NCBI RefSeq assembly: GCF_009389715.1
Contig: NC_052401.1
Location: 663,843-727,842 of the forward strand
Length of the DNA: 64,000 nucleotides
DNA from: Phoenix dactylifera
Lineage: Eukaryota; Streptophyta; Magnoliopsida; Arecales; Arecaceae
Direction: 5' to 3'
Both the position numbers and the translations under genes were made by a program. The notes under the pieces are model-generated. The model made no database searches. It was not told where the DNA came from and saw only the letters and a program-made list of their open reading frames with translations. Position 1 is the first letter of the stretch; every line of letters begins with the position of its first letter. Below are positions 1 through 35,426 of the stretch, in pieces.

Positions 1-266
1 TCCAAGTGCTAACTGCCGCACTGATTGAGAGCTTGAGACCAGGAGCTATATGTAACAGAAAACAGCAAGTTCCAGTGAATCCAATCCTGTCACATAATCC
101 TACACATGGTGGGACCATGGCTTATTCCCATACTTTTGGGTGCTGAGTTGGCTGTTCCCTATTACCTCCATGGAACCAAAGCTCCCGCTGAGCCAATTAG
201 TTTGTGTCACGAATTTTACTACACTCATTATTGCACTTCATTTGTCTTTGCCACCATCGTTTTCCT

Positions 267-277
267 CTATAAATATA
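267..277 (+). promoter_or_regulatory. TATA box of DIR-A pseudogene copy 1
   Basis: The motif CTATAAATATA lies 56 bp before the ATG at 333. The same box is present in unit 2 (13,261-13,271) and in front of the intact unit 3 gene (39,652-39,662). Confidence 0.7.
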
Positions 278-332
278 GCTTCCATGATTCCATCTTAGCT
301 TAATTCCATGCCCTCCACGCATTGGCAGAAAA

Positions 333-910
333 ATGGCTACCATCACCACAACCATTTCATCTCTTCTTTTTGGCATGCTCCTCCCATCCCTCTTCCTCCC
401 CACTTGCGGCCTAACTAATGCAAAAACCCAGGCCCATTTCTCCAAACCAGCCCACATGAAGCTAAGGCAGAAGGTAAGCCACCTCCACTTCTTCTTCCAT
501 GACGTAGTGAGCGGCCGCAAGGCGACGGCGGTGCCGGTCACCGATCCAGTCATGCCTTTGCCATCGAGCTTCGGCAAGATCGTCATGATGGATGATTTGC
601 TGACGGAGGGGCCGGAGCCGACTTCGAAACCCGTGGGCCGGGCTTAGGGGATGTATGCATTTGCGGCCCAGCAGGAGCTGGGCCTGCTCATGGTCATGAA
701 CTTGGTGTTCACAGAGGGGAAGTACAACGGCAGCGTGCTCACCGTGCTCGGACGGAACCGGTGCTTCACCGGGTACGGGAGATGCCGGTGGTCGGAGGGA
801 GCGGGCTGTTCCGATTCGCCCGGGGCTATGCTTAGGCCCAAACCCACTGGTTGGATCCCAACACGGGGGATGCCATTGTTGAGTACAATGCTTACGTGCT
901 GCACTACTGA
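333..910 (+). pseudogene. Dirigent protein pseudogene, DIR-A copy 1
   Basis: Single-exon dirigent reading frame starting at ATG 333 and ending at the original TGA 908-910, nearly identical to the intact copy at 39,710-40,288. It begins with a hydrophobic signal peptide and the dirigent-family HDVVSG segment. Three lesions are visible against the intact copy: CAG to TAG at 645-647, a one-base deletion in a CCC run near 757 (GGAACCGG instead of GGAACCCGG), and a second CAG to TAG at 833-835 in the post-deletion frame. The first two lesions are shared with copy 2; the third is private to this copy. A truncated product of 104 residues could still be translated but would lack most of the beta-barrel. 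TATA box and start context remain intact. The functional relative would be a secreted protein that guides phenoxy-radical coupling. Confidence 0.92.
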
Positions 911-1058
911 ACTGAACCTAATAGTTGAAGTGCCGCTTGAAGAAATAATTAGCTGTAGGTCTTCTTCTTTTCATTTTTGAGTGTTGATCTTTAAGCAGAC
1001 CGGTGTCTTTATTTGATACTTTTCTTCCTCGGTAGATGCTGAGGCTCCTTTTCACTGT

Positions 1059-1530
1059 GGGCTCGTTTGGTTCGCAGGAAAACGAGGGGGGAAAGTGTGG
1101 TCAACGGGAAAGTAATGAAATGCCTCTTGTTTGGTTGGAGTTTTCAAAGGAGAGAGATGGGAAAGTTGTATTCCCATGGGAATATGATTCCCACATTTCA
1201 TGGAAAAGTCTTTCCCATGAGAAACATGGGAAAGTTACTTTCCCATGAGGTGGAAATCACTCCTTTTTTATTTTTTCCCAAAAAAACCCTTTAGCATTAA
1301 AGAGGCATTAAAGACCTAATTTTTATTAAGGGCATAATAGGAATTATACATAACTTTCCTAGGAAAGTGGATGGTCAACCAAACATAAGCATTTTGGAAA
1401 TTTTAGTCACTTTCCCATGGTTAACCAAACATGTCAAAAGTACTTTCCTAGGTATCCTCTTCCTAGGAATCTGATTCCCAGGAATCATATTCCTAGGAGA
1501 GAAAATACTTCCCGCGAACCAAACGAGCCC
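1059..1530. mobile_element. MITE, 472 bp, Tourist/Harbinger-like, only in unit 1
   Basis: The ends are inverted repeats: GGGCTCGTTTGGTTCGC on the left and its exact complement on the right, extending to 21 of 22 matching positions. The flanking target duplication reads TGT (1,056-1,058 and 1,531-1,533); CTGTG around a 470-bp element is equally consistent. Units 2 (14,050-14,052) and 3 (40,434-40,436) hold the uninterrupted site. The interior is non-coding, AT-rich and full of short inverted GGGAAAGT/ACTTTCCC motifs. Harbinger-type MITEs usually target TWA, so the family assignment is tentative; the mobile nature is well supported. Confidence 0.9.
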
Positions 1531-3214
1531 TGTGTCTTTGTGGGAGTTACCTTCAGTTGGATTGGATTCATAACATAACAGTTTGTTTTATCCCTCGGAC
1601 GGTACCGCCTTTTTGTTTGCATGGACGGCTTGTCAGTTGTCGCTGAGCAGTGAAACAAAAGACGAAGTATTGGTGGCCGTGTGAGACCTACCTGGTTCAC
1701 AAGGGCGTCTCCACCGAGTCCGGATGCTACTGAATTACACCCCGTGGCCAAATGATCCAGATGGTGAGGAATTCATAGAAAGATTTGTCACGCCCCGGCC
1801 AGATTCCGCGCATGATATGGCCATACTATCGAAGAGTACGGCCCACGATAACACGAAGCCAAACGTTTCATTTAGTTTTCAAATCCATCTCAAATATAAT
1901 AGAATAAATATGAATCCAATTTCATTATTTATTAAATAAAAACCAATATTAATTCAAAGCTTCTAAATCCAAACATAAATACTAAGCCTATAATCCTTAA
2001 TATTCAGAAAATCATTAACTATAAATTTGTAGTCAATTTAAAATACTAAAATTTTTCTACAAAATTGTCAAGCGTGCTAGCACCAACTCCACGTCTAGAC
2101 CATCTTCTGTCCCTACTGATCCTATTCACCTAGCGAGAGAAAAATAAAATAAAGGTATACGAGCGACACAGCTCAATGAGTAAACCTTTCACTACCTTAC
2201 TAGATCAAGCATAAGTTTTTCATGCTAATGCATCATTGAAGAAAAATAACAGGTATTCCAAAATAATCATTTCATAACATAGTATATTAAAAACAGGTTA
2301 TATAGCAAATCATGCATGAACAAATCATCCATCTTTCATCAATAATTTCATAAATCGTTTTTCATGTTATGTAATCCTATCACGAAATTCAAAATATTGC
2401 TCACATATATTTGTGTTATGGTCACTATAACCTGTAACAGGGTTGTCTTCGTAATCGACAAGATTTAAAAGTTCATATTTGTCACCAACTTTAATCCATT
2501 AACAGAAGGCCGTTTTCGTTGGATGCTAGCTCTAAGACGTCGATTGAAATTCATGATCAGATTATATGATAAAACACTTATTTTTTTCTTAAAACATACA
2601 CATAAAAAAGTGAAAAATACTAAATGATATGATCTGATTCATAACAGAGCTATTTTCATTAGAATATTAATGAAAATTTATTTCATAATAAAGCCTGATT
2701 TTCATGATACAAATGCTAATCCAAAATTTTAAGAAAAGTGTGATATTTTCACAAGCAGATTTTATGCATGAAAGACATGATTATAAAAAGTACAAGATCT
2801 ACTTACAGTTCAAAAACTAGTAAGAAGTATAAGATTTACTTACCTGTTTCGCCTTAAGCCGTCAAACTTCACTAGGTGATTCAGTCAACCCTATTAACAA
2901 CATTAAAAGCGAGATTAATTTCCATTTGAAATAAATAAGAAAGGAGAGAGAGAGAGAGTTGGTCGAGTGACAGTGTTCGATGGTTCCGGATGGTTTAGGA
3001 CCGAGCGACTCGATCAACAAATCATAGGGCATAAACTCGATCAAGGCTTAGATTAGCCAACATGGTTCATCAATGAAGGTTTTAAGGACATTCAACAAGG
3101 CTAGGATGATCAGTCCAGTAGGTAGCCCGGGCACCAGAGTAGAACTGTGCCCTTTACAAGGTTAACTCGGGTTCGTAGATCAAGTCAACAGGACCCGATA
3201 CTGGGTTCCTTGGA

Positions 3215-3470
3215 CATTCTAGAGAGAGAAAGTGAAGAGAGAAAGTAGAGAGGAGAGAGAAGGTGGAGAGAGAAAGTGGAGAGAGAGGAAAGAGAAGGTA
3301 GAGAGAAAGTGGAGAGAGGAGAGGGAAGGTAGAGAGAGAAAGTGGAAAAAGAAAGTGGAGAGAGAGAGAAAATGAGAGAGGATAGCTCTCTTTCTCTCTC
3401 TCATCCTCTTCTCTTCTTTTTCTTCCCTTGTTCTTTTCTTCTTTCTTCTCCCATTGCAACAACAAAGAAA
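3215..3470. repeat. Purine-rich (GAGAGAAAGTG)-type minisatellite with mirror pyrimidine tract
   Basis: From about 3,220 to 3,385 the plus strand is almost pure purine, with repeats of GAGAGAAAGTGGA spacing. From 3,385 it switches to an almost pure pyrimidine run, so the junction around AGCT at 3,384-3,387 can fold into a hairpin. The unit 2 copy (15,750-15,985) is shorter by several repeats, as expected for replication slippage. Confidence 0.7.
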
Positions 3471-5148
3471 AGAGGGGTGGCTGATGATGGTGACTGCAAC
3501 AGTTCGGCGGTAGTGGCAATGGCGGTGGCGATGGCCAGCGGCGGCGGCTGATTGGTGAGGAAATCCAAAAAAAAGATCCAAAAATAGGGGAATCAGACTC
3601 TCCTTGACTTCCAGCCATTGGCTGCTCACCGACTGTAGGGTGTTGCCCACAATAACACAAAGCCCATAATAACAATATTCTTTCATATAACATGATAAAA
3701 TTTGTCCAACTTATATCTAAATCAAATATTTGAATATTGAAAACTACAACCCAAACTTTATAGTCATCGCTACTTCTATGACAGCTTGTAACTATGCTTT
3801 AAGCTTTATTTTTTCAACCTTCATTCATTTATTCTTTTCCACTCCTAGCAACTTTATTTATCTTAAAAAAATATAAAGAGACAAATGAGCTTTGGAGTTC
3901 AGTAAGTAACTATGCACCATCTTACCAGATCAAGTATGAGTTTTTCCATGTCAATATATCATTTAAAGAAAATAAGAGACAATCCAAAATAAGCATTCAT
4001 AACACATATATTAAAACAAGTCAAAAAGGAACTCATGCATGCATAAATCATTTATTTTCCACAAACATGCTTCAAGTTTATTTTGCAAATAAATGCATAA
4101 ATTATTCTTCTAACATTTAGCTTCAAAATCTTGCTCGCAGATATTCGCGCTACGGTCACTATAACCCATAATATGGCTATTTTCGTAATCGACAAGATTT
4201 TATAGTTTACATTCGTTACTAACTTTAACCCATTGGCTGAGGGCCGTTTTCTTTAGATGCTAGCTCTAAGGTGTCGATTGGCCTCCATTTTTAGAGGCAG
4301 TCATAGTTATCTAAGAGCTTATAAAATATTTCACAAATAATACTTTAATAAGTAGGTTGAAAATGTTAAATGACATCGCAAAACTTTAAATAATTATGCC
4401 ATATATGAAATTTTACATAACCATAAGTCATTTACTATTAAGTATTCTAATTATGCCACATATATCATTTTCATGCAATTTTTCATAAATCATATGTAGA
4501 TCATTTACAACAAAGTACTCAGTAAAGATGCTATTTGACCAAAAATATGGATTATTTTCAACCGTATGCTTGGGTTTAAACTTTTAAAAAAAATGCAAGA
4601 TCAATCATATCAAATATAATTCATAATTTTTCTTACTAAAAATTAATCAATTATTTAAAATTAATAAGATTTATGCCAAAATTATTTACCTCTGTTCGTT
4701 CAAAAATTTTTAGATTCAGTTGGATAGCTCTGCTGCACAAAATTGTTTAAAATAAATTACTTGCTATTTACCTTTTTAAAAAAAACAATTCGAAATGAAT
4801 TTGGGCCGGCTTCAAGTTCTGATTGGGTAAGTCGGATTTGGATATACAAATCTAGTAAAGAGAGAATGCTTGCACCAAGGATGGACATTTCTCTCTCCCC
4901 CTCCCCCTTTTTTTTTTCTCCTTTTCTCTTTTCTTCTTCCTCTTTCTTCTTTTCTTCTTTTCTTTTCTTCTTTTCTTCTCCTTCATCGCCCTCCCCTCTT
5001 TTCTTCCCCGTGAAACTGGAGGGGGAAGGGCGAGAGCCCACCCCACCTAAGACAGAGAAGGGGAAGGAGGCCTCTAGCCCGACGGTGGCGCGGCCGAGGG
5101 CCGGCGGGCGGTAGGGTGGAACCACCAGATATGCTCTCCCCCCTTCTC

Positions 5149-5188
5149 TTCTTCTTCTTCTTTTTCTTCTTCTTCTTCTTCTTTTTCC
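5149..5188. repeat. (TTC)n microsatellite
   Basis: Run of CTT/TTC triplets inside the LTR-like block, repeated unchanged in unit 2 near 17,687-17,726. On the minus strand it would encode only lysine/glutamate tracts; it is not considered coding. Confidence 0.7.
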
Positions 5189-5537
5189 TTATTCCGGCGG
5201 CCCTTTGCCGGATTCCAGCCATTGTCGATCGATCGGAAGGAGGGGGAGACAAGAGAAGGAAATGCGAAGGGTATGGAAGGCCTTACCTTGCTCCGATGAG
5301 GCGTTGCACCTCGACCCCGGCGGCACAAGCGAGGGCACAGTCAGCTCAAGCAGGAGAAGGGACGAAGATGGAGGAGGAATAAGAAGATGGATGGAGGTGG
5401 AGTGGAATCGAGGGTTTTTTAAGCCCCAGAGAGGGAGTGTAGCGATCGGCCGTTCGTCAGTTACAACCGTCTAACGGCCGCGGCGGTTGGGCCTGCCGAC
5501 TTTGGGCTAAGTCAGGCCCAGTTGGCTTGATTCTTAC

Positions 5538-5889
5538 AGACTGTGTAAGCCCAAACCTCCGCGAGAGGACTGCGAATACTGAAGCAAAAGACTGAATCTT
5601 CCATGAAATCTATCACATTGAATGCTGTGACGACGACACAACAACAACAGCTATGGTAACTCTTAAATAAAAAGCATGGATGCAAGGAAAATGTTTTGAA
5701 AACTAATCCGGCCATGGGTCGGCACCTCCAACTAGAGTACAGCAAATAATACAAGTCTAATTATCCCAATTGGTGTAATGTTAATTGGACCACTTTATGG
5801 GACGAGTCCCGTTCGACAGATGCTATATCACATCAGTTAATTTCAAAAAAATAATAATATTTAATTATCTTTTGTAGGTCCTTGCTAAT
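5538..5889. other. Unit spacer, conserved with unit 3
   Basis: No gene seen. This stretch aligns with 40,733-41,030 in unit 3 (shared words such as tgtaagccca, gcatggatgca and ttaattggaccactttatg) and marks the point where the three units become collinear again after the LTR-like block. Confidence 0.6.
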
Positions 5890-6587
5890 TATCAATTATG
5901 TTCTATTTAGATGCCCCCATGCAGCTCAGGTGTGGGGTAGGATCATGAACTCACCGCAGGTAGTGACTTAAGTAGAGGACTTCTTAAGCCAGCTGAAGGG
6001 AGCTCGGTGGCGACCAAGCACTCTGGAGTTGGATATTAGATGTGCCTATGTGGCCTATCATATAAGGCTAGACAGAAATACCCAAATTTTTCAGGGTAGA
6101 AGTATGCACTCGAAGACAGTGGCGGGTAGGGCTGTACTTCACCCCTACCCCCTTGCTTTTTCAAGGTTGATTTTGATGGCAGTATCGTTGACAATAGAGA
6201 AAGAGGTGGAGTGGGCTTTGTGATCAGGGATCATGAGTCTAAGCTCATTGCGGCCGACATGTCTTCGATGAATCAGTCAGTGGTGCAGAGTTGAGAGCTG
6301 CATGGGAGGACATTGTCTTTGCCAAATGGGTCTTAGGGGCGACTTGTATTCAGCTTGAGGGCGACGCGGCCATAGTGATTGATTGGATTTATAAGAGTGT
6401 TGATAGGGACAGACGTTCGAATTGGCATATGCTTTGTTGGATATATGTAAGATTGTGAGTGGGCTGATGGCATTCCGAGCTACCCAATGTCTATCGGAAG
6501 GCAAACAGTGTTGCCTCCTATGCGGCGCACTACTCAGAAGAATTTTGTTGGGAGGGCACGGACGCTGCTCCCCCACCCCTTCGTTAG
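5890..6587 (+). mobile_element. LINE 3'-end remnant (zf-RVT tail plus RNase H), unit 1
   Basis: Interrupted translations follow the C-terminal part of the full LINE at 21,255-25,364 in order: a zf-RVT tail (CPHAAQVW), the YVAYHIRLDRN segment (AYLAYHIWLDRN in the full LINE), then an RNase H domain with FDGSIVDNRERGGVGFVIRDH and LEGDAAIVIDWI. Several stops and frameshifts are present. This is an old 5'-truncated L1-family insertion. Its poly-A end is deleted here but kept in unit 2. Confidence 0.8.
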
Positions 6588-7702
6588 GAATAAAATTTGT
6601 TTCCTTTTGCTTCATTATTGGTAGTCTTATTCAAGTCTATATAAAACATTTTTTGTCTAGATTCTCTTTCTTAAAATGTGGTTAATACTTGGAGGTTTTG
6701 TTAAGGTACGGATTTTCGCACCGACGCATGAATAGATTTTTAAGAGATTCGTTTTAACTGCAAACATATGAACCAATTTGGAAAGGCCACGACGTTCCAG
6801 GAGACCACTCGGACCACCTACTCTGGGATTATGGAGTTGTAAGAGGTAATCAGCTTTTGTAGCTTTGTTGTGGGTGCTCTTGGAGACTGCCATGACCGAA
6901 ATCTGGAGGTATCACTGGTCCCTCTTGCTCTCACCTACACCTACCCTTAATGAGCCCGTCCCACAAGAGATGCATTGGCCTCTCTCCAATCACATATGTT
7001 GCTACCGAAAGCAACATTATTTGTAGGTTCTGATAGCCCGTTTGCAGCAACATAAGGTTTCATCTAATAAATTTAGCTAGGATATGTTATTTAAATTTCT
7101 TAACAATATATAAGTATCCAAAATCTATCTAGTTCGTAGAAAAAATGGTACTAATCATCTACCCAAAGGACAACCAATGATCTAAAATTATATTTCCCAA
7201 AATAGAGAGGACCGAACATATGTTCTAGCCTTTCAGGCACGCACCCCCTTGAATCGAAACATTGGCAAACTAGATTTCACCCTCACGAAAAAAAAAAAAA
7301 AAAGAAGCAGAACAGGAGCCTACCGCAAGTACTACTACTTTTATGCGAACCCTCCCGTGCAAGCTATAACAGCCCTAATAATGATATAGCGGTTGCCACC
7401 TAAAGTAGGTTTGGGGAAAAAAGTAGCAGGATTTGACCCCCAAAAAAAAGTAGTAGGTTTGAAAAAGCTGTCCACATGTAAAGAATTTTACGATTACTTT
7501 GCTCTCGTTCCAACTTTTTATTTTTCTGAGCAATGATTCCACTCTCCATGGCCTGTAGCATTGAGTAGAGCCAGGGGACACCGACAATGACATCCATTGA
7601 ATGAAAAAGAAAAGAGCCAAAACCAAAACCACATCATGAAGATCACCTTGCAACCAACGCCATGGAGAGGACACAAACTAAATCAGAAAACCAACCTCTA
7701 AA
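6588..7702. other. Spacer and 3' flank of DIR-B copy 1
   Basis: No gene recognised. AT-rich unit sequence collinear with 19,270-20,373 in unit 2; a poly-A run lies near 7,290-7,304. The part nearest 7,703 presumably contains the DIR-B 3' UTR and differs from unit 2 by about 2 substitutions in 320 bp. Confidence 0.5.
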
Positions 7703-8278
7703 TCAGTAGTGCATGACGAAAACATTGTACTCCACCACAGCATCACCAGTCTTAAGATTGAAGGTGTGCGTCCGGGCCTGGGCATAACCCTGGGCCAACC
7801 GAAAAAGCCCACTTCCCCCGATCACCGGCATCTCCCTCACCTTCGACAATGCCGTATACCGGCCCAATATGGTAACCGTGCTACCATTGTACTTGCCGTC
7901 GGTGAAGGCAAAGTTCATGGACATCAGCAGGCCCGCCTCCTCCTTGGACGCGAAACAATAGAAACCCTGGGCCCGGCCCACTAGCTTTGAAGTGGCCTCA
8001 GGGCCAACGGTCAGCGCGTCGTCGATCATGACCAACGTGCCGAACGAGGTCGCCGACTTGTTGGCCGAGGCCGCCTGGGCCACCCTGACGGTGCTCGGAT
8101 CCGGCCCGCTCACGACGTCGTGCAAGAATAGCCGCAGGTGGCTCAGCTTCTGGCGCACCGGCGGCGTCGCCGGCTTTTGACTCTGGAGGAAACTGTAGTG
8201 TTCTCCATCCTTGGCTGAGGAGGGAGTGATGGTGCTGAATAAGAGAAGAAGAATGGCGATCGAAAAGAGTTTGCCCAT
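7703..8278 (-). CDS. Dirigent protein, DIR-B copy 1 (191 aa)
   Basis: Intact intronless dirigent gene. ATG at 8,278 was chosen because the encoded [14 protein letters not shown] stretch is a classic signal peptide ending near PSSA, and because the in-frame extension upstream is only CA/GA microsatellite without an ATG. Dirigent-family landmarks appear in order: [57 protein letters not shown], and the C-terminal [14 protein letters not shown] and NGS are possible N-glycosylation sites. Length is typical for the family (about 180-200 aa). Members are secreted to the apoplast and direct stereo- or regio-selective coupling of monolignol radicals; substrate cannot be read from the sequence. It is convergent with DIR-A. 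The middle of the gene differs unusually strongly from copy 2 (see findings). Confidence 0.93.
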
Positions 8279-8285
8279 GAGAACC

Positions 8286-8287
<2 letters not shown>

Positions 8288-8375
<88 letters not shown>
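8288..8375. repeat. (CA)22(GA)21 compound microsatellite in DIR-B1 leader
   Basis: About 22 CA units (8,288-8,331) followed by about 21 GA units (8,333-8,375), starting 9 bp upstream of the DIR-B1 start codon. On the coding strand it is (CT)n(GT)n between TATA box and ATG, so it lies in the likely 5' UTR. The unit 2 copy has different repeat numbers (about 19 CA, 26 GA). Confidence 0.9.
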
Positions 8376-8378
<3 letters not shown>

Positions 8379-8440
8379 GTGAGAATGGGATGGGAGTTTG
8401 GGTTTTGGTGTGATGAGTGTATGTGTCTGAGCCCTTGGTG

Positions 8441-8452
8441 GTTATTTATGGG
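8441..8452 (-). promoter_or_regulatory. TATA-like box of DIR-B copy 1
   Basis: The minus strand reads CCATAAATAAC about 165 bp before the ATG. It is conserved in unit 2. Transcription start would fall just upstream of the CT/GT microsatellite. Confidence 0.5.
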
Positions 8453-8459
8453 GACCGTC

Positions 8460-11119
8460 AGGCGTCAGGTGGGGGTGGGGACTGGTGGAGGAAAATTTTA
8501 TTTAATGGGTCTGCTTCCCGTTATTTTGTCTATTTAAAAGCGCCTGGTTTGGTTGGGGTGAAACTTTCCCCATGATCTTTACCTGAGGAAGGGCATGGCT
8601 TGGGAGTTGGGAATGCAAGTAACACTTCGATTGTTTTTTTCTCTAAAATAAATATTTCGTACCCTTCAAATACGGCCATATCCAAAAATAAAATAAAATA
8701 AAATAAAAAATAGTAGAGTACTCTAGGCAGCTTTTTTTTTTTTTTACCCACAGGACATTTTTGGAGTGGTTGGCATAGAAGGCTCACTTCTATTAACTAC
8801 CGGCTAAAATAAGAATAAAAAAACACTGAATTTTTTTTAAAAAAAATGTCAAGAAGTATACTTTTGACTTGGTATTAGGTAAGATGGGTCTCAAATTGGT
8901 AATCTGGTCATAAATCAAGTCTGAACTTTTAAGTTAATCTTTCCTTGTATGAAACCAATTAATCTGATTGAGAGCCATAGTCTTTGGAGCTCTGGAGGAT
9001 CAAGTATAGGCCTATTTTGCACCAATAATACATGACTTCTTAGGAAGACAATGGAGACAGCATTTTGCCATTAACTTGGAAGATTTTCTGATGGTATGAA
9101 TTCTTATACTTAAATCAAGCCTAAATTAGATCCTTTAGGCATATCAGCATTTCGTACATGGCCCACTCAGCTACCTTTCGAAAGCTTAAATTCTAGACAA
9201 AGCTAGCTTTCCTGAGAAAGTCGATCGACATGACTTGGTTGCCCAACGAATATAAGTATGGAGCAAGAATCGGAGTCCTTCCATAGTAAAATGGTTTAAA
9301 GGTTTGTCTTTTTTCTGAAGGGTAATGGAGGAAGTGAATTGCTTTCCCCAGATTTATTGAGATGGTAATAAAAGAAGACAAAGCTTGTAGATATATACAG
9401 AGTTAAGGCATGAGAAGAATAGGAGGGCAGAGGGTAGCCTGCTCCTTTCAGTCTGCATCAAGGGTAACAAGTGGTTCAATAGCAATCTATAGCTGTCAAG
9501 TAACCTCGGTGCACAGATTTCCCCAGAGCTAAAAACACTGAAGAGTTTTTGTATAAGACCGAAGCCAATGAAGAAGATTTTCTGACAAAAATTCAAAAAA
9601 TATATTCACTCCGGACCTGACAATGTATATTCACATTGTAGTAGGGGAAGAAAATCCTGCAGCTGTTGATGAAATTGTAACAAGAGTTAGTAGTGAATTT
9701 ACCATCATTTGTGAGTTCCTTTAGAGGTCATCATCTGACATGTTCCTCATTTCAGTTTTTGGACCCAATAATAGGTCAATATTGAATACTAGGCTTGATG
9801 TCTCAGAATTGATGGCATCCAATAGGAATGTTTATCATTCATCTTATCAAAACAAAAATCATAATAACGATTTCCTTGTCGGAACAAAGTAGTTTGAAAC
9901 TTTAAAAATCCAACACATATGTCCAGCATACTATATTTTTTAAGTTTTCAAAATATCATGAAATTATGCTCTAAATAAAACTTAATAATTTTTTGCTTAC
10001 AAAATAGTCTTTATAATTTTTTTTAAGAAGGAAAGGAAGTGATTACAGCCCTATCAACCATACAAATCCAAAGTGCTCCAAGATACGACTCTCTCCTGAG
10101 TTATGGCTCTTGCTAGGTATGGCTAATGCAAAAATCTACTAGATCATTCAAATTGCTGAAGTTAATTACCCAAAAGTTATAGAATTCTGTATTTTTTTTT
10201 ATATTTGATTAGCCAAGCAATATGTTAAATTAAGGAGGAGGACTTTCTCATCTTTCCTTCTGTATCATAGAATTTCCATGTGGTTCGTCTCATAAGAGAA
10301 AACAGCTGAGCCATTGACACATGCTTTCATAACTAAAAAATGTAACTAGCAAAATCATTCAGCTGGTGTGCTGTTTTTGTATTTGCGCCGTGAATTGTGG
10401 CAAAATAATGGAAGCAAAGAAGAATGTGAATGGTGGGAGAGACAGTTGAGTGAATTTTTTGGGTGGTTTTTCTGAGTTACCATGGCATTATGTAACAGCT
10501 TAAGACCTCACCCAAAATAGCGTCAGGTTAAAAGTTTAAATCCATTCAAATCTAATTACAAGCATTACGATCGGCCGATGGTCAGCCTCAATGAGCCTTT
10601 GCTGCAATGTTCCCTAGTCCACATGAGTTATAGGCTGGATTTACTCTGATACTATTTGTAACAACCTTTGATTTCATCCAAAATAGTTAGCTCGAAGGTA
10701 TTTTTTAGATTTTATATACATGTATAAATACCCAAGATCTCTTGGGCAAATAATTGATATGGAACTAAACACATGCCCACGGATCTCCCACATTATTCTT
10801 TTGCATTTGTTAGTGGTCCCTGCTACTCTTCGTCCACAATAATTGGGACCCAAAACGAGTAGAAAATGGGTCACCTAGAAAAGATTAAAGTAGAACCTGA
10901 CTTGGCTTAAACGCGCGTGCACTGCGTGGGGCTCTGCGTACATCTTCCACATTACTGGGAGCGAGAGAGAGGAGAAGCCGCAGCTTTGGGAGTGCTACCA
11001 TCCTTGTTATTCCTTGGTTGAATAGTACCAGTTTTATTTTACCCTTTTTTTGTTTTCTATTATCTTTAAACTCAAGCAATTATACATCAATTCAGCAACA
11101 CCATCACCCTCCTATTTTC
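8460..11119. other. Unit 1 spacer
   Basis: No gene recognised. Holds an (AAAAT)n tract near 8,685-8,710, a poly-T run near 8,732-8,745 and the empty sites of the unit 2 LINE (8,510-8,527) and Copia element (9,515-9,519). Around 10,490 and 10,658 two related words (TGTAACAGCTTAAGACCTCA and TGTAACAACCTTTGATTTCA, each leading into CCAAAATAG) suggest the ends of an old repeat of unknown type. Confidence 0.5.
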
Positions 11120-11580
11120 TCGAGATCAATTTTAATAGGACCGTGATGAAAAAAAAAGGGTGCATTTGTGGAGCAGACTATATTATATGAAGTGCTAAGT
11201 GCACCGCCAGTTGCAGACGGTGTTAGAATTTTTGATACTACAATTCCAATGGTGGAGTTACATGCAGCTTGAAAAGATCTAAATTATGTTATATATACAT
11301 TAAGGGTTTCACAGGTTTATTTAGACGAAGACTCTATAACAATTATTAGATATCTTTCTAATTCACCTCCTACTGACAGAAGACTTTTTCCATTGGATTG
11401 TTGGCGATGATGCATTCACTACTATAAATTGAGATTTCACATATTTATAGAGAAGCTAATAGTGCAACTGATCGGATGACATTTTATGTGGCAAATTATA
11501 TGAGATCTACATTATAGGTTTTTTCAACAGATCTTCCTATTTAATTTTGTAATATTTTATTTTTCATTCCCATGGATGTA
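11120..11580 (+). mobile_element. LINE RNase H remnant, second fragment of unit 1
   Basis: Translation resembles the LINE RNase H domain: FNRTV followed by a degraded core, ELHAA with a stop where the unit 2 copy reads ELRAAWKDL, and then VSQVYLDEDSITIIRY. It carries more stops than the unit 2 counterpart at 37,498-37,960. It is a separate, older insertion from the one at 5,890-6,587. Confidence 0.65.
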
Positions 11581-12994
11581 TTTATGCTCAATTAACTTAA
11601 ATCATCCGATTTATTGAAAAAAAAAGGTTGATTATCACCCGTGAGACGTAACCTCATGATACTACAATCTTTCTCTTGCCCGACTAATTCTAGCAATCAA
11701 TGGTTACAGTTTGGTGTTTAGTTTAAATGTTGGCATCAAACATCATGGCACCTTCATGGGATGTGAGACATAACTAGTTGATGGTTTGTATTGGTTATTT
11801 CAATCTGGTAGATATATTTTAAGTGCATATAATGTGAGTGCCTCATCATAAAAGAAAAGAGATCTCCTCTATAACACTTAAGAGTTGTGTTTGATACTCC
11901 AATATGCCAAATTCCAGGCACAAAATCTTGCTTTGAATCAACTCTCGAATGCTTGGTTATACTTGCCTTCAAAGCAAGCCGCACCTTTGGGTGCCAAAAT
12001 TTGCCACTTAAGATATTTAACCTTCGGACATAATAAATAACACGAACTATTACATGTATGATGACTCCTTTGAATTCCCAAATGGCCTTATTCCACCATG
12101 TAATGATTTCACCCAAGAAAATAAAAAAAATGATTTTGTACCCACAGAACATTAATTTTGTACGATCCTAAAGTAATAAAAATGCCGGAAGGTAGGGTGG
12201 GGAGGTTTCTCCCAAACATTCTCAACCTTCAATTGTTTTATGCTTCCTTTAGACTCTCTCTGATTTCTTTTTCATCGTGCTGCTTTTCAAAGTTCTCTCC
12301 CGAACACTCTCTTCCTCATCTAAGCAGAAGTCCCCGCATGAGAGTCCTTTAAAGCGTGGTAGCTAAGCAAAGTCAAATATGGATTCTTTAAACACCGTAG
12401 TTGAGAAATTTGTATTAAAAATATGATTTAAATTACATATATTGTTCATAGCACTAGTGTGCTTTATATTCAAATTGAACTCATAGATATAGTAAAATAT
12501 ATAATAAAATTTTATGGTTATGAGAAAGATACTAGAGGCCAAATATAGTATAATACAATAACAAAATTTTATGATTTGATATAAATACTAAATTTGAATA
12601 TAACAATGAGACTCCATAATTTTTAGAGATTGATCTAAGTTGATATATCAAGATTATGCATGCAATATGCAATAACTATGATATCTAATACCGTACATAC
12701 TATAATAGACGAGATTGTACTTGATTCTGGCAACTGTAATATATCAGAAGGCACTGTAAGTCTGGTAATCAAGGAGGAGGTCATGGCGGTTGAGGACGAC
12801 CATACTATGATATTTAATATCGTGCATGCATGTTATATTATGATAGATGTGATTGTGCATAATTTTCACTTAATAGTAGCGTTGACGGGTCCACGACGTT
12901 GGTTTCTTTTTCCCCGGTGAATTAATTTTATCCCACTGTCCCCGTTTAACAGACTTGGAGACCTCTGAATGGAATAAATAAAGGCAACGGTGTT
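11581..12994. other. Unit 1 distal spacer, upstream of DIR-A copy 2
   Basis: No gene recognised; AT-rich. The last ~125 bp (from GTAGCGTTGACGGGTCCAC at about 12,869) are conserved in front of both visible downstream units and probably belong to the DIR-A upstream region. Confidence 0.5.
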
Positions 12995-13260
12995 TCCAAG
13001 TGCTAACTGCCGCACTGATTGAGAGCTTGAGACCAGGAGCTATATGTAACAGAAAACAGCAAGTTCCAGTGAATCCAATCCTGTCACATAATCCTACACA
13101 TGGTGGGACCATGGCTTATTCCCATACTTTTGGGTGCTGAGTTGGCTGTTCCCTATTACCTCCATGGAACCAAAGCTCCCGCTGAGCCAATTAGTTTGTG
13201 TCACGAATTTTACTACACTCATTATTGCACTTCATTTGTCTTTGCCACCATCGTTTTCCT

Positions 13261-13271
13261 CTATAAATATA
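13261..13271 (+). promoter_or_regulatory. TATA box of DIR-A pseudogene copy 2
   Basis: CTATAAATATA, identical in sequence and spacing to copy 1. Confidence 0.7.
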
Positions 13272-13326
13272 GCTTCCATGATTCCATCTTAGCTTAATTC
13301 CATGCCCTCCACGCATTGGCAGAAAA

Positions 13327-13904
13327 ATGGCTACCATCACCACAACCATTTCATCTCTTCTTTTTGGCATGCTCCTCCCATCCCTCTTCCTCCCCACTTG
13401 CGGCCTAACTAATGCAAAAACCCAGGCCCATTTCTCCAAACCAGCCCACATGAAGCTAAGGCAGAAGGTAAGCCACCTCCACTTCTTCTTCCATGACGTA
13501 GTGAGCGGCCGCAAGGCGACGGCGGTGCCGGTCACCGATCCAGTCATGCCTTTGCCATCGAGCTTCGGCAAGATCGTCATGATGGATGATTTGCTGACGG
13601 AGGGGCCGGAGCCGACTTCGAAACCCGTGGGCCGGGCTTAGGGGATGTATGCATTTGCGGCCCAGCAGGAGCTGGGCCTGCTCATGGTCATGAACTTGGT
13701 GTTCACAGAGGGGAAGTACAACGGCAGCGTGCTCACCGTGCTCGGACGGAACCGGTGCTTCACCGGGTACGGGAGATGCCGGTGGTCGGAGGGAGCGGGC
13801 TGTTCCGATTCGCCCGGGGCTATGCTCAGGCCCAAACCCACTGGTTGGATCCCAACACGGGGGATGCCATTGTTGAGTACAATGCTTACGTGCTGCACTA
13901 CTGA
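13327..13904 (+). pseudogene. Dirigent protein pseudogene, DIR-A copy 2
   Basis: Same reading frame as copy 1 with the same CAG to TAG stop (13,639-13,641) and the same one-base deletion near 13,751 that shifts the last ~50 codons out of frame. The later codon that is TAG in copy 1 is still CAG here (13,827-13,829). Because both shared lesions predate the unit 1/unit 2 split, the gene was already dead when it was duplicated, unless conversion copied the lesions later. Over the whole pseudogene plus upstream kilobase only one difference from copy 1 was found. Confidence 0.92.
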
Positions 13905-14304
13905 ACTGAACCTAATAGTTGAAGTGCCGCTTGAAGAAATAATTAGCTGTAGGTCTTCTTCTTTTCATTTTTGAGTGTTGATCTTTAAGCAGACCGGTGT
14001 CTTTATTTGATACTTTTCTTCCTCGGTAGATGCTGAGGCTCCTTTTCACTGTGTCTTTGTGGGAGTTACCTTCAGTTGGATTGGATTCATAACATAACAG
14101 TTTGTTTTATCCCTCGGTCGGTACCGCCTTTTTGTTTGCATGGACGGCTTGTCAGTTGTCGCTGAGCAGTGAAACAAAAGACGAAGTATTGGTGGCCGTG
14201 TGAGACCTACCTGGTTCACAAGGGCGTCTCCACCGAGTCCGGATGCTACTGAATTACACCCCGTGGCCAAATGATCCAGATGGTGAGGAATTCATAGAAA
14301 GATT
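13905..14304. other. DIR-A copy 2 3' flank with MITE empty site
   Basis: No further gene. Contains the uninterrupted TGT target (14,050-14,052) that is split by the 472-bp MITE in unit 1. Confidence 0.8.
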
Positions 14305-20373: not shown

Positions 20374-20952
20374 TCAGTAGTGCATGACGAAAACATTGTA
20401 CTCCACCACAGCATCACCAGTCTTAAGATTGAAGGTGTGCGTCCGGGCCTGGGCATAACCCTGGGCCAACCGGAAAAGCCCACTTCCCCCGATCACCGGC
20501 ATCTCGATCACCTCCGAGGACACCGTATTCCGGCCCAATATGATCACCGTGCTTCCATTGTACTTGCCTTCGGTGAAGGCAAAGTTCATGGACATCAGCA
20601 GGCCTATCTCCTCCTTGGATGCCAGCGCGTAGAAACCCTGGGCCCGGCCCACTAGCTTTGAAGTGAGCTCAGGGCCAACGGTCAGCGCGTCGTCGATCAT
20701 GACCAACGTGCCGAATCTTGTCGCCGACTGGTTGGCCGAGGCCGCCTGGGCCACCCTAACGGCGCTCGGATCCGGCCCGCTCACGACGTCGTGCAAGAAT
20801 AGCCGCAGGTGGCTCAGCTTCTGGCGCACCGGCGGCGTCGCCGGCTTTTGACTCTGGAGGAAACTGTAGCGTTCTCCATCCTTGGCTGAGGAGGGAGTGA
20901 TGGTGCTGATGAATAAGAGAAGAAGAATGGAGATCGAAAAGAGTTTGCCCAT
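20374..20952 (-). CDS. Dirigent protein, DIR-B copy 2 (192 aa)
   Basis: Intact intronless gene, start ATG at 20,952 equivalent to copy 1. The signal peptide has one extra codon (LLLLFIST versus LLLLFST). The dirigent core is complete: [71 protein letters not shown] and NGS are potential glycosylation sites. The protein differs from copy 1 at about 17 positions, nearly all between the serine/alanine-rich loop and the IEMPV motif. The last third of the gene and the 3' flank are almost identical to copy 1. Function is as for the family: apoplastic radical-coupling guidance. The downstream product and partner oxidase are unknown. Confidence 0.93.

Positions 20953-20961: not shown

Positions 20962-21050
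<89 letters not shown>
20962..21050. repeat. (CA)19(GA)26 compound microsatellite in DIR-B2 leader
   Basis: Same position relative to the start codon as in copy 1 but with about three fewer CA and five more GA units. Direct evidence of slippage since the unit duplication. Confidence 0.9.
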
Positions 21051-21194: not shown

Positions 21195-21254
21195 TTTTTT
21201 TTTTTTTTTGGTCAAAACGGCAATTCATATAGCTCTAACGTGAGTACATCCTGC

Positions 21255-24200
21255 CTAATCAGAAGAAAGTAAAAAATACAAATGTGGCGGTAACTCCACT
21301 GTGGACGTCCAGTGGAGCTCCCCAGAATGTCGTGCAACATGGGAGGCGACCCAGTCAGCAGCCCTGTTCGCCTCCCGGAAAATGTGCACGGCCTGAAACT
21401 CGTCATCTCCCTCGCCAGTCTGCGGGTCTCCCGAATGAGCGGATGTCCGTCTCCATACCTATCAGCACCCCGGATCCAATCTATGACAATGGAGGAATCC
21501 CCCTCAAGGTACAGCCGGCTAGCCCCAAGCACCCGCCGCGCATAGGACATGCCCGCCCAAGCAGCCCACAACTCTGCCGCAACGACCGTGAGCCCCGTCG
21601 TGCCCCAGCCTCCTGCTGCCACCATACTCCCAAAATGGTCCCGGATAACAAATCCAGCCCCTCCCGACCTCCTGTCCGTCGCCACACTACCATCAAAATT
21701 CACTTTAAGATAACCAGGGGGTGGGGGTACCCAAGACACAATGGCAAACCTGGGCGCTAAAACAGCACTGCGGGTATCCCAGATGTCCCTAGTCATCCCA
21801 AGTGAAGACTCGCCAAAGCAAGAGAAAACCTCCCCAGCCTGAAGCACAGCTCTCTCTGCCACCATCCTCGCCGAGAGCCTCCTGCCCTCGAACAAACAGG
21901 CATTCCGGTCCAACCAGATATGGTAGGCCAGGTATGCCCTAATAATGCCCTCCTCCACCAACCTAGGGCTCCGAACCGAAGCCCGCAGTAACTGTATGAA
22001 ATCCTGTGTCGTCCCTACGGAGTGAGGAACAGGCGCTGGCGAAGACCTCCATATCTCTCGAGCCCTGGGGCACTGCAAAAGCACATGCTGAATGGTCTCC
22101 TCCATGTCCGGACACACCACACACTCCTGAGGAACCCTCATGCCCCGCCTGACTAGCACACTCCTGGTGGGAAGGCAGCCCCAGGCCACCTTCCAGATGA
22201 ATAGCGCCACCCGTGGATGAATCCGCATCCTCCAAATCCAGCCTCCCTCCATCCGTCTAGGTGACTCTCTACTGAAGAGGGCGTATAGATCCCTCGCTCG
22301 CACCTGTGATCGGCCCGACGGCACCCATACCAACCTGTCTGACTCCCCCTGAGAAGGCACCGGAAGACCCAAAATCGTCGCAGCCAGCTGCGCCCCAAAC
22401 ACCTCACGTACCAGCCCCTCCCTCCAACCGCCCTCGTCTGGATCCAACAGGTCACTGACCCTCCGGCCCGCAAGACGCACCGAGTCCACCAAGGTCGGCA
22501 TACGACTGATCGGCACTGCAGTCACCCAACAATCCTCCAAGACATCAACGGAGCGACCATCACCTATAGCCCATCTGATCTCCGGTAGAACCCTCCCAGC
22601 TCTGGCGCACATCTCCCGCCATACCAGAGAGTGGCGGCGCCCAGCTCTCACACCAGCAACCAAAGCCCCATACTTGGCCCTCATCAGAGAGGACCACATA
22701 CTATCAGGCTCCAAGACATACCTCGCAGCATGACGAGCCACTAAAGCCTCCCTCCGTACCAACAGTGACTGCACCCCCAAACCTCCATATCTAGTAGGCT
22801 GGCACACCACCTCCCAAGCCAACAGATGAATACCGCCCCTGCCACCTTGCCTCCCCCAGATGAAATTCCTAACCAGCTGCTCAATGGACCTCAAAACTGA
22901 CACTGGAATAAAAGCATGGGAAAGCAAATAAATGGGAATCGAAGAGAGTACCGACCGAGCCAAAGTGACCCTCCCCATCATGGATAATGAGTGCATCTGC
23001 CAGCCCTCCATCCTCTGTCTGACAGTAGCCTCCAGGAAGGAGCAATCACTCCCACGCAGACGCCGGCCTGATAGCGGGATCCCCAAGTATCTCATCACAC
23101 CACCATGCTCCCCCACCCCCAAAATCTCACAGATGGAATGTCTCACCGCCTGCCTAGTAGACGGGCTAAAGCAAACTGCAGATTTCGAGAAATAACCCGT
23201 TGACCAGACATGGCACAGTAATCCAGTAGAATCCTACCCAACGCCATAGCATCTCGACGTGTCGCACGAGCTAACAGCAAACAATCATCCGCAAAGAGCA
23301 AGTGAGAGATCGATGGACCCTCCACCACAGGCCTATAAGCCCCCAACTCCTGAGTAATCACAGACTGACACAACACTCTGGATAGTGCATCCGCGCAGAT
23401 AATAAACAATAAGGGAGATAAGGGACAACCCTGTCGTAGCCCTCCCACAGACACAAAGTAGCGAGAAGGCATACCGTTCACCAGTATGGCAAAGGATGGA
23501 GACCTGACGCAACCCATGATCCACCGAATCCACTCCTCAGGAAAGCCAAACCCCTGCAGTGACTGATGAACAAACTCCCATCGCATCCTGTCATAGGCCC
23601 GCTCCATATCAAGCTTGACTCCCATCAAGCAACTCCTCATCGGGGCCCTCTCCAAGTCGAACATGAACTCCTGAGCAATCATGATATTGTCGGATATGCT
23701 CCGACCTCCTATAAAAGCTCCCTGCTCCGGACTAATCAGCCTCGGTAGAATGCCCCGCATCCTAGTGGCGAGGATCTTCGCCGTAGCCTTGTACACAGTG
23801 GTGCACAGGCTAATCGGTCGAAAGTGCCCCGGCTCTGAAGCATCCCGCCGCTTCGGTATAAGGGTAATGAAAGTACGCTGCCAGTCCGCTGACATCACCG
23901 CTGTGGTAAAAAACTGCTGTATGGCCGCCGTCACATCCTGTCCCACTATCAACCAGTACCTCCGAAAGAATAATGGTGGAAATCCATCCGGCCCTGGCGC
24001 CTTGTCCCCCTCAAGGGACCAGATCGCCTCCCGAATCTCCTCCACCGAAACCGGCCTGATCAAAGCTGCAGTCTCCTCCTCCGACACCCTCGTCGCCGGC
24101 ATCACCATCTCCCCCCGGCCCCCCTCGCCAGCCTGCTCTGTCCACCTCGCTCTAAAATAGCACTCCACAATCCTCCGGATCATAGCCGGGTCATCTGACA

Positions 24201-25364
24201 TCTGGCCATCCTCACTCCTGATTGATCTAATCCTGTTCTAGTTTCTCCTGATCAATGTAGCCTGATGAAAGAATTTTGTGTTACGATCCCCCTCTAAAAT
24301 CCACTGTACTCTGGACTTCTGTCTCCATAGTGTCTCCTGCTGTCTAAGAAGAGAATCATGTAAAGCCAAATGAGATCTCAGATCCCCCATCTCCACCTCA
24401 GATAGCCCCCCCCCTGTGCCTCCCGAGCCTGTAAAGTGGAAATGGCCTCCTCCTCCTCCTCAGTCCTCCTGAAGATGTTCCCCACTTCTTCCCGATTCCA
24501 CCTCTTCAACCTCCTCCTGGTCAACTCTAGCTTGCGAGACACCCGATACATGGCATCACCCCTAACCGGGGATCTCCAAGCCTCCCTCACCATCTCCCAA
24601 GACCTAGGATAACTGAGCCAAATCTTTTCAAACCTGAAAGGGGAGCAGACTGGAATGTGTACCTCGGTACTCACCAACAGTGGACAATGGTCCGAAGCAA
24701 TCCTCGGCAAATGTCTGACATGATAATCTGGAAAGCACTGAACCCACCCAGCTATGGCACAAGCTCTGTCCAATCTCTCCCAGACTCGGGCCCGCCCCTG
24801 CTGATTGTTGCACCATGTAAACCTGGGTCCCGAGAAGCCCAAATCAATCAAACCATTGATTGAGATAAAGTCCTGAAATTCTTTGATCTTCCTATTGAGG
24901 GAAAAAGGATTCCCCCCCATCTTCTCCTGAGAGTCCACAATGCAGTTGAAATCACCTGCCATCAGCATGGGATGGCCATGACTTATCATCTGAGAGGCCT
25001 CCTCCCATAGGGCCCTCCTAACTCTGTAGTCAGTGCTAGCATAAACAGCTGAAAGGACCCAGGGTCTCCTATCAGCCTCCGAAATCACCATGATCACCTC
25101 TTGATTACTGACATGGAAACAATCCAAAGTGCAACACCCCAAACTCCATATTACTATAATACCACCCGACAAACCTTGAGAGTCCACAGCATAGAACCCC
25201 CACGATCTCGGAATCACCCTTCTTGCCTTCTGTACACTGCCACCACACAACCGGGTCTCAAGAAGAATGCAAACATCCGGGTTGTGTTGTTGCACTAACC
25301 TGCGAAAAGCCAGGGCAAACGATGGTTTCCCCGCGCCACGACAATTCCACAGTAAGATCTTCAT
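21255..25364 (-). pseudogene. LINE ORF2: endonuclease, reverse transcriptase, zf-RVT, RNase H (disabled)
   Basis: Starts at ATG 25,364. APE-type endonuclease motifs are visible: LLWNCRGAG, LLETRL, AGDFNCI and ASDHCPLL. A one-base shift in a nine-C run (24,406-24,414) leads into a frame with TAG at 24,238-24,240. The reverse transcriptase follows, with the catalytic FADD box (LLFADDCLLL). Another one-base loss near 23,190 moves into the long C-terminal frame with the zf-RVT motif (CVVCPDMEETIQHVLLQC) and an RNase H domain (NFDGSV, AELWAAW, LEGDSSIVIDWI). A fourth lesion, loss of one T near 21,400, shifts the last ~45 codons; the original stop is probably TAG 21,255-21,257. With only four lesions over 4.1 kb the copy is young but cannot encode an active enzyme. 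Confidence 0.93.
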
Positions 25365-27460
25365 AAATCACCCTTTAATCCCACACAGCCCACACCTCCG
25401 GAGCTGTTACTCTCCCCTACATCCACCTCCATACAACCTACACCTCCAAGAGAATTAGGATTAACTCCCTTCGCCGAAGCCATTAATTGAAGTAAAACTT
25501 GAAGGTGCTGCCCACCACCATTCACTTGTGCCAATTGGCACGCACTCACTGATGTACCCGTGCCATGCTCAACCTGATCCCCACCACAACTTGAAGAATC
25601 CTCCCCCTGCCCATTAACACCGGCCCTTCTTATCACTAAGTCGTATGCACTGCTCCCCTGTGCCGGTTGGCACGCCTGTAGCACTTGCAGATCACTGTCA
25701 ATCGGCTTCACAGCCGACCCCTTCCCCAGTTCTGAAACACCACCGCAGCCATCCGCTCCACTCGCCTGCCCCGCCAGCGACTCCCCCGGATGCAGCTCAG
25801 TCGCCGGCACACCGCCGAGCTCCGACATGCCCACCTCCACCGATGACGACCGGAGCAGCTGGCTTCCCGTGCTCGCGGCTTGCTCACGCCGTTGATCCCC
25901 TTCGACCCCCGCGGGATGCTCGTTCACCATGGGAGGCCGACCACACACCGGTGCTAAAGGCGGAGGTGAACTCCTGCTCCTCCCGCGAAAGCCAGCCGCC
26001 GGCCGCCGCGCCTTCGCTCGGGCCGGCTCCTTCCCCCCAGCTAGAGTCGAAGAAACCCCCTCAGAACAGGCCACAACCGGATCGAACCTGGGCGGGCTTC
26101 TGAACCGCTTCAGCGGGCTCGATCCCGGTCCGCTCGGTCGCAGGCCCCCGCTTGACTTGGGCCGCATTTCTAACCGGCCCAGATTCGGCATCGCCCGGTC
26201 CACGCACTGAGTCACCTCGGCTGACCCAGTGCCCGTTCCGGGTCTACTCTGTTCACCCACCAGCAGACTCGCTCCCGCCTCCGATACGTCCTTCTCCGGC
26301 GTCCTCCGGCGAGCCACCTTGGTCGGTTTCTGCCACCCTTCCAGATCAACCGGAGAGAGTGACGATGTCGACCCAACCTCCATCCTGCTCGGACCAGGGC
26401 CGGGCGACGCCGGCGTCACCCCCTTCTTGACACCCGGACCGGACTTCTCCTTCTTCCTGGGAGCCGAGGAGGTCGTCCCTATCCGATTAGTCACCAGCCA
26501 TGGTCCGAATGCACCCCCCTCCCGGGGCCGGTCTCCCCCTCCCGCGGCTTGCCCGGAGTCCTCCATCACAGCTTTCCCCTTACTCGCCTTCTCATGCCCT
26601 GCTTCAGACCCCGCCAGCTGCGCACCCTCCACCGCCGGAGACCCAAAATCGCAGACCGCCGGCCAGTGACCAACCCGCCCACACAGAGAACACGGGGCTG
26701 GCAGGTTTTCGTATACGAAGCCCTGCCAGAACTTCGAGGCTCCATCGGCCGATCTCCCCAACACCCAAGTCCCCGGCACGAGTGGCGCAGACGCATCCAA
26801 TTCAACCTTCACCCTTGCATACCCATACCTCCGACGATCCTCCGTGAAGCCATCCAACCCCAGGGGGTTACCCGCTCTCGCCGCCACCTTGAAGATTGTG
26901 TTCTTCTTCCAGAAATCCAACGGTAGGCTAGGGAGACGTAGCCACACGACCACCCGCCCTACACCTCCGGCCCCCGTGGAGAAGTTCGGCCGCCACCTCT
27001 CCATTGCGAGGAGCTGACCCGCTACCATCCACGGGCCGGACCGCATTGCCGCCTCCCGGTCCTCTGCGTTGGCGAATCGGATTGCGACAACACCATCCAC
27101 CAGGGAGAAGGCTTCAACGTCGTAACTCAACTTCCCAACTCGCCGGATCTCCTTCGCCACCCACTCCGCCGGAACGGGCCTCCCCACACTCCTCACGAGA
27201 ACTGTGGAGCTTCTCCATTCCGACCGCACTTCTTCCAGTTCCTCCTCCGCAATGTCGACCACCTCCGTGAAACGCTTCTGCAACTCTTCCAGGTCACGGC
27301 CGGACGTCCGATGACTTATCCACGCCGGCTGCCTCGGCGCGCCTCTCGCCACCTCCGCCCACGAAGGCCTCCTAGCTGCCTTCCTTGGGAGAGTACTGTT
27401 TTGCTCCCCCGCCTCTGTCGACTCCACCGGCGCCGACGATCCACCCCCAGCCTCGACCAT
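25361..27460 (-). CDS. LINE ORF1, nucleic-acid-binding protein (699 aa)
   Basis: Open from ATG 27,460 to TGA 25,361; the open frame runs upstream to 27,496 but without another ATG. The N-terminal region has a DUF4283-like block (STVLVRSVGRPVPAEWVAKE, EDREAAMRSGPWMV, WLRLPSLPLDFW), followed by a CX2CX4HX4C zinc knuckle (CSLCGRVGHWPAVC). The remaining ~400 residues are low-complexity, rich in Gly/Ser/Pro, as usual for plant L1 ORF1. The expected role is binding the element RNA to form the transposition particle. The stop overlaps the ORF2 start as ATGA, so ORF2 may be translated by reinitiation. High GC contrasts with the AT-rich host spacer. Confidence 0.88.
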   Translation of the reverse strand: MVEAGGGSSAPVESTEAGEQNSTLPRKAARRPSWAEVARGAPRQPAWISHRTSGRDLEELQKRFTEVVDIAEEELEEVRSEWRSSTVLVRSVGRPVPAEWVAKEIRRVGKLSYDVEAFSLVDGVVAIRFANAEDREAAMRSGPWMVAGQLLAMERWRPNFSTGAGGVGRVVVWLRLPSLPLDFWKKNTIFKVAARAGNPLGLDGFTEDRRRYGYARVKVELDASAPLVPGTWVLGRSADGASKFWQGFVYENLPAPCSLCGRVGHWPAVCDFGSPAVEGAQLAGSEAGHEKASKGKAVMEDSGQAAGGGDRPREGGAFGPWLVTNRIGTTSSAPRKKEKSGPGVKKGVTPASPGPGPSRMEVGSTSSLSPVDLEGWQKPTKVARRRTPEKDVSEAGASLLVGEQSRPGTGTGSAEVTQCVDRAMPNLGRLEMRPKSSGGLRPSGPGSSPLKRFRSPPRFDPVVACSEGVSSTLAGGKEPARAKARRPAAGFRGRSRSSPPPLAPVCGRPPMVNEHPAGVEGDQRREQAASTGSQLLRSSSVEVGMSELGGVPATELHPGESLAGQASGADGCGGVSELGKGSAVKPIDSDLQVLQACQPAQGSSAYDLVIRRAGVNGQGEDSSSCGGDQVEHGTGTSVSACQLAQVNGGGQHLQVLLQLMASAKGVNPNSLGGVGCMEVDVGESNSSGGVGCVGLKGDL

Positions 27461-27499
27461 TTCTCCCCTCCCACACTGTTCGACTAAATGCCCCAAAGA

Positions 27500-28987: not shown

Positions 28988-28998
28988 TTCTCCTACTT
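28988..28998 (-). promoter_or_regulatory. Copia polypurine tract
   Basis: The minus strand reads AAGTAGGAGAA directly before the 3' LTR; expected primer for plus-strand DNA synthesis. Confidence 0.6.
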
Positions 28999-35414: not shown

Positions 35415-35426
35415 GCTCTGATACCA
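35415..35426 (-). promoter_or_regulatory. Copia primer-binding site
   Basis: The minus strand reads TGGTATCAGAGC two bases after the 5' LTR; complementary to the 3' end of plant initiator methionine tRNA. Confidence 0.93.

Follow-up and report, generated by a model that had tools for sequence, protein, structure and literature searches.

A sharply bounded divergence block within two tandem dirigent genes of Phoenix dactylifera, probably part of a gene-conversion mosaic

The dirigent array and its neighboring elements

The window that we analyzed, a stretch of 64,000 nt from Phoenix dactylifera (contig NC_052401.1), contains a tandem dirigent array together with plant-type LINE and copia-type elements. 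Self-comparison and divergence profiles delimited unit 1 (positions 1–12994), which carries the pseudogene DIR-A1 and the gene DIR-B1. Unit 2 (12995–39371), delimited by self-comparison, carries the pseudogene DIR-A2 and the gene DIR-B2 and owes its greater length to two insertions, a LINE and a copia-type element. A third unit begins with DIR-A3; beyond this gene lies a decayed remnant, in pieces of 85% to 58% identity (identity to unit 1 is 85% and then about 75% and less).

DIR-B1 (7703–8278, minus strand) is an intact, intronless gene whose translation of 191 amino acids matched the Pfam Dirigent family (PF03018) with an E-value of 8.1e-57. DIR-B2 (20374–20952, minus strand) is also intact, encodes 192 amino acids (PF03018, E-value 1.6e-56) and has one additional Ile codon near the N terminus as compared to DIR-B1. 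On the plus strand, DIR-A1 (333–910) is a dirigent pseudogene with in-frame stops and a frameshift, DIR-A2 (13327–13904) is a pseudogene that has the first stop and the frameshift in common with DIR-A1, and DIR-A3 (39710–40288) is an intact dirigent gene of 192 amino acids, which served as our outgroup. A full PF03018 domain was found in DIR-B1, DIR-B2 and DIR-A3, with scores of 191.5, 190.6 and 195.6 bits, respectively (cutoff 29.1 bits) and matches covering profile positions 2–147 of 148. By tblastn, neither a third DIR-B copy nor a further dirigent gene was found in the 64,000-nt window.

When the DIR-A1 and DIR-A2 segments (1–1059 and 12995–14053) were compared, just one of the 1,059 columns differed, a level below that of the other background segments; this sole difference is the extra stop in DIR-A1. 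The DIR-A2 and DIR-A3 segments differed at 38 of 1,270 columns.

The LINE of unit 2 (21195–27499, minus strand) contains endonuclease, reverse transcriptase, zf-RVT and DUF4283 domains. It is flanked by an approximately 18-bp target-site duplication and is inserted upstream of DIR-B2, some 240 bp from the start codon. Because DIR-B1 keeps the uninterrupted target site, DIR-B2 may be expressed differently. The copia-type element of the same unit (28519–35897) is bordered by a 5-bp target duplication; its 470-bp LTRs are 99.1% identical and have diverged to about the same degree as the least diverged stretches of the units. Only unit 1 carries a MITE-like insertion (1059–1530), which ends in inverted repeats of 17 bp, with 3 bp of target apparently duplicated, and is missing beside DIR-A2 and DIR-A3. 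Directly upstream of both DIR-B start codons stands a long (CA)n(GA)n microsatellite (about 8288–8376 and 20962–21050), whose CA and GA lengths differ between the two copies. Downstream of the array, at 59589–63366, we noted parts of a gene for an ABC-2 type transporter, putatively ABCG-like (ATP-binding domain at 59589–60455, membrane domain at 62527–63366).

Extent and inner structure of the divergence block

In a global alignment, DIR-B1 and DIR-B2 were found to differ by 31 gap-free substitutions over 258 bp (12.0%), within a block that spans 7835–8092 of DIR-B1 (minus strand, codons of residues 63–148) and 20506–20763 of DIR-B2 (minus strand). The other 1,452 columns of the region 6600–8320 hold 15 differences. 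On the 5′ side of the block, 186 bp of coding sequence contain 2 substitutions and one 3-bp indel; on the 3′ side, 132 bp contain 1 substitution. Over the 320 bp that follow the gene at its 3′ end there are 2 substitutions and a few gaps in the alignment. A two-changepoint likelihood applied to 6600–8320 returned exactly 7835–8092, with a gain of 33 ln units and edge ranges (2 lnL) of 7794–7835 and 8059–8109.

These data bear out most of the original prediction, which had described about 30 substitutions in 258 bp (near 12%), many of them changing amino acids (we counted 14 replacements in the 86 block codons), between almost identical coding ends and with abrupt edges; the end in unit 2 is 20763, rather than 20766 as first proposed. 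The accompanying claim of flanks differing by about 1% does not hold uniformly over the 13-kb unit, in which there are further islands of about 10% divergence.

The density of the differences was assessed through 10,000 column shuffles, comparing the densest 258-column window with the observed maximum. This was 31 against a shuffled maximum of 18 in the left arm (to 8521) and 31 against 21 locally (6600–8521). For the whole unit the values were 32 and 22, and this observed maximum may not correspond to the coding block, since a noncoding island at 12478–12881 is similarly dense.

Silent sites participate in the divergence. The dS of the block is 0.186, with 10.8 changes in 65.8 silent sites vs 1 in 74 in the coding flanks (P = 0.0015 by Fisher's test with the counts rounded). 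A comparison of dS between block and flanks had been proposed from the start as a means to separate conversion from selection, and it came out in favor of conversion. An abrupt change of divergence, silent sites included, is what a conversion tract would show, and selection on amino acids alone is insufficient to account for the raised silent divergence.

The changes within the block are nevertheless peculiar as compared to those elsewhere. The block dN/dS is 0.61, vs 0.31–0.35 for DIR-A3 compared with the DIR-B genes, a comparison in which dS is near saturation. Eight block codons carry two or more changes vs 3.4 expected (P = 0.003), and three of them are changed at all three positions. Adjacent pairs of differences number 13 vs 3.6 expected, a value reached in none of 20,000 random placements; no such excess was found in the three noncoding stretches tested, which cover four of the seven noncoding islands. 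Transitions and transversions are in a 15:16 ratio in the block vs 90:28 in the noncoding islands (P = 0.004) and 100:47 in the background (P = 0.06). When triplets were counted in the three possible frames, however, those with multiple hits were 8, 7 and 8, so we rejected a codon-frame signature of selection. Since the clustering is not bound to the codon frame, multi-nucleotide mutation could produce it just as selection could, and either that or positive selection was probably also involved in the past of the two lineages. Thus selection, which had been rated the less likely explanation, fails as the sole cause, given the raised dS, but retains a place as a possible contributor, given the dN/dS and the excess of adjacent changes.

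The block is also patchy inside, its three parts showing 22 differences in 124 columns, 2 in 86 and 7 in 48. The first dense sub-block (7835–7960, minus strand, residues 107–148 of DIR-B1) has 7.8 changes in 29.7 silent sites and 14.2 in 96.3 replacement sites; the second (8045–8092, minus strand, residues 63–78), with its 7 differences in 48 bp, has 3.0 in 13.5 and 4.0 in 34.5, respectively. Between them, the 28 codons of residues 79–106 (7961–8044, minus strand) are nearly identical, with no change in 22.7 silent sites and a lone changed codon, the double-hit Ala95/Leu. These codons are not frozen, because DIR-A3 and DIR-B1 differ there at 12 of 21.3 silent sites. The silent-free middle was spotted post hoc, which makes the associated P values of 0.0014 and 0.006 optimistic; it speaks against a single even tract from one donor.

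Pocket residues within the block

We placed the pocket positions by sequence alignment to solved chains, the closest of which to DIR-B1 include the pterocarpan synthases GePTS1/PsPTS1 (6ooc and 6ood, E-values 1.7e-49 and 4.4e-48) and 8th2 (8.8e-47). GePTS1 is described as having six polar pocket residues, namely Asp50, Asp83, Tyr103, Asn137, Arg145 and Tyr181 (PMC7450108). The dense sub-block at 7835–7960 includes the codons equivalent to Tyr103, Asn137 and Arg145. Four of these six GePTS1 residues are retained in both DIR-B copies, and neither copy has the canonical six-residue pocket. Unlike GePTS1, DIR-B1 has a Tyr in place of Asn137, where DIR-B2 and DIR-A3 have Asn, while DIR-B2 has an Ile in place of Arg145, where DIR-B1 and DIR-A3 have Arg. 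An Arg at the latter position also occurs in the five solved dirigents whose alignments were compared, out of six matches. On the basis of these alignments, DIR-B1 and DIR-B2 would each have lost a different one of two conserved pocket residues.

Arg145 has been proposed to stabilize a quinone methide, a role that the authors themselves call unproven (PMC7450108). The probability of finding at least two of the four in-block pocket positions among 14 replacements in 86 codons is about 0.12 (hypergeometric), so we regard the pocket changes as a functional lead and not as a test of selection.

The block further contains the equivalent of Region B (AtDIR6 Lys90–Leu138), whose exchange was reported to control stereoselectivity in pinoresinol-forming dirigents (PMC4340379). 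By an offset worked out from the alignment, this region corresponds to residues 93–142 of DIR-B1, and 7 of the 14 block replacements fall within it. In this respect the block resembles the Region B swap between (+)- and (−)-pinoresinol dirigents. That swap, however, was engineered between distant dirigents, and of the six differentially conserved, stereo-linked positions named in PMC4340379, none differs between DIR-B1 and DIR-B2. As judged from the residues involved, the two proteins may differ in substrate or stereochemical preference and hence in their chemistry.

A mosaic of divergence and its possible origins

Over the whole alignment of units 1 and 2, we counted 300 differences in 12,469 columns, with an index of dispersion of 3.9 (100-column bins). 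An even spread of differences along the 13-kb unit, which the original prediction had named as evidence against itself, is therefore absent. A three-rate HMM, whose likelihood exceeded that of a one-rate model by 104 ln units, resolved stretches at about 0.6%, 1.9% and 10% divergence. Eight of its 11 high-divergence segments were counted as islands; two segments of 21–22 columns (4905–4925 and 11367–11388) were kept in the background, and the microsatellite segment 8324–8335 was removed from islands and background alike. The islands comprise 149 differences in 1,412 columns vs 147 in 11,045 (about 1.3%) for the remainder, and their level of about 10% is biased upward, as they were chosen by the HMM for divergence.

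Besides the coding block there are seven noncoding islands, with 118 differences in 1,144 columns. They include two adjoining ones within 6064–6443 (6064–6183, 9.2%; 6246–6443, 8.6%), one at 10565–10790 (10.2%) and one at 12478–12881 (11.4%). In the last, which lies upstream of DIR-A2, 40 of the 46 differences are transitions, and this excess may reflect the decay of methylated cytosines rather than conversion. Divergence is uneven outside the islands as well (chi-square 31.8, 11 df, P = 8e-4, with the islands excluded and 10565–12033 removed whole). Because the background is uneven and the DIR-A1 and DIR-A2 segments are nearly identical, exchange between the units appears to have been recurrent. 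From its divergence profile, the array looks old and homogenized again and again in patches.

A GENECONV-like permutation on the coding sequences, a kind of test that had been suggested along with the original prediction, gave weak support: P was 0.03 for the longest concordant run between DIR-B1 and DIR-B2, and the next two runs were not significant (P = 0.12 and 0.29). We found no donor gene for the block in the 64,000-nt window. DIR-A1 to DIR-A3 were ruled out as donors: at the 31 substituted sites DIR-A3 agrees with DIR-B1 at 9, with DIR-B2 at 10 and with neither at 12 (one of the latter owing to a gap in DIR-A3), and its identity to the block is 63.5% for DIR-B1 and 63.9% for DIR-B2. Among the 14 amino acid differences, five are DIR-B1-like in DIR-A3, five DIR-B2-like and four neither. 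A search of prokaryote and viral contigs yielded 58 and 5 pattern matches, respectively, but no relative, as expected for a plant gene. The polarity is symmetric and favors neither direction of transfer. Both versions of the block look like separate derived lineages, which fits an imported as well as a retained block.

The block probably belongs to a mosaic that interlocus gene conversion has produced in the tandem dirigent array. Two DIR-B lineages, which would have split long before the roughly 1% divergence of the surrounding DNA arose, would meet inside near-identical genes, and DIR-B1 and DIR-B2 differ as they would after an exchange of the half of the protein that holds the active site. 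We infer that the edges would derive from conversion, in the form of several short tracts or of heteroduplex repair in patches, and not from a single crossover. The original prediction of a tract from an unseen paralogue into one copy thus stands as far as conversion is concerned (raised dS, sharp edges), but is not established as to a single imported tract, in view of the failure to find a donor in the window, the symmetric polarity, the other islands and the patchy middle.

Because the block is one of several islands of about 10%, import and retention are nearly equal as explanations. Import, whereby a further DIR-B-type gene supplied the block to one of the two copies, has in our estimation a little less than an even chance. 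It agrees with the position of the block wholly within the coding sequence, the usual site of homology to a dispersed paralogue, and with a silent divergence that is nominally above that of the noncoding islands; one tract from one donor, however, does not predict the silent-unchanged middle.

Alternatively, DIR-B1 and DIR-B2 could be old duplicates whose flanks were homogenized by conversion or unequal crossing-over, while selection kept the active-site divergence around loop VI, a scenario known from the primate red/green opsins. We consider such retention under selection a realistic possibility, though one that falls short of even. It explains the other islands between units 1 and 2 as old divergence without an unseen donor, and it is consistent with the 3′ edge of the block, which coincides with the codon matching GePTS1 Arg145, with a middle in which one double-hit replacement codon accompanies zero silent change, and with a block dN/dS about twice the A–B value. 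Divergence peaks at selected sites are known, moreover, in duplicates under conversion (PMC3924837). On the other hand, several homogenizing tracts would be required around a 258-bp island, dN/dS over the whole block is below 1, and the silent change in residues 107–148 (7.8/29.7) is nominally higher than the divergence of the noncoding islands (118/1,144), so that the ages may differ.

It is improbable that the block is simply an island missed by homogenization by chance, and devoid of functional meaning. Noncoding islands are similarly divergent, but the block is wholly coding, its clustered, replacement-rich changes are unlike those of the noncoding stretches tested, and two conserved pocket positions are changed.

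An assembly or phasing artifact, with alleles or haplotypes mixed between the units or one copy mis-polished, is very unlikely. Polishing errors are expected to introduce indels and stops, whereas both reading frames are intact and the block is indel-free; unique insertions, furthermore, distinguish the units. The least probable reading invokes no conversion at all, only strong diversifying selection following a recent duplication; it would accommodate the replacements and the multiply hit codons, but we rejected it on account of the raised silent divergence and because DIR-B1 and DIR-B2 are about equally derived with respect to DIR-A3.

Similar mosaics have been described. The human red and green opsin genes show a divergence peak in exon 5 under gene conversion (PMC3924837) and, like the DIR-B genes, are tandem duplicates of low divergence save for a peak over functionally decisive residues; in the opsins, however, selection and function are demonstrated, whereas our case for both is drawn from homology and a single genome. 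GOT1p1 and GOT1p2 of Tigriopus californicus are likewise paralogues in which strongly and weakly diverged stretches form a mosaic, with ongoing conversion by which divergent segments are also transferred (PMC3728101). That case is backed by population data, whereas ours consists of two copies in one assembly, from a plant family of secondary metabolism.

The relatedness to PTS1 suggests that DIR-B1 and DIR-B2 may belong to DIR-b/d, and the array resembles the DIR-b/d clusters of cotton, a recent tandem expansion of dirigents in whose published main text the word "conversion" is absent (PMC7876823). Among the titles and abstract openings listed from the open-licence literature, we found no report of gene conversion in dirigent genes, which is weak evidence of absence. 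The process itself, a conversion mosaic with a divergence peak, is known, and the DIR-B pair is a fresh example of it with a functional angle.

It is conceivable, though on balance unlikely, that the block represents a natural swap of an active-site segment kept by selection, with conversion homogenizing the genes elsewhere and the products differing. More than 95% of dirigents are stated to have no known biochemical function (PMC7450108). DIR-B1 and DIR-B2, near-identical save for a pocket-forming segment, offer a natural experiment on the residues that set the reaction. The mosaic also warns against using whole-gene divergence to date or group tandem dirigent copies.
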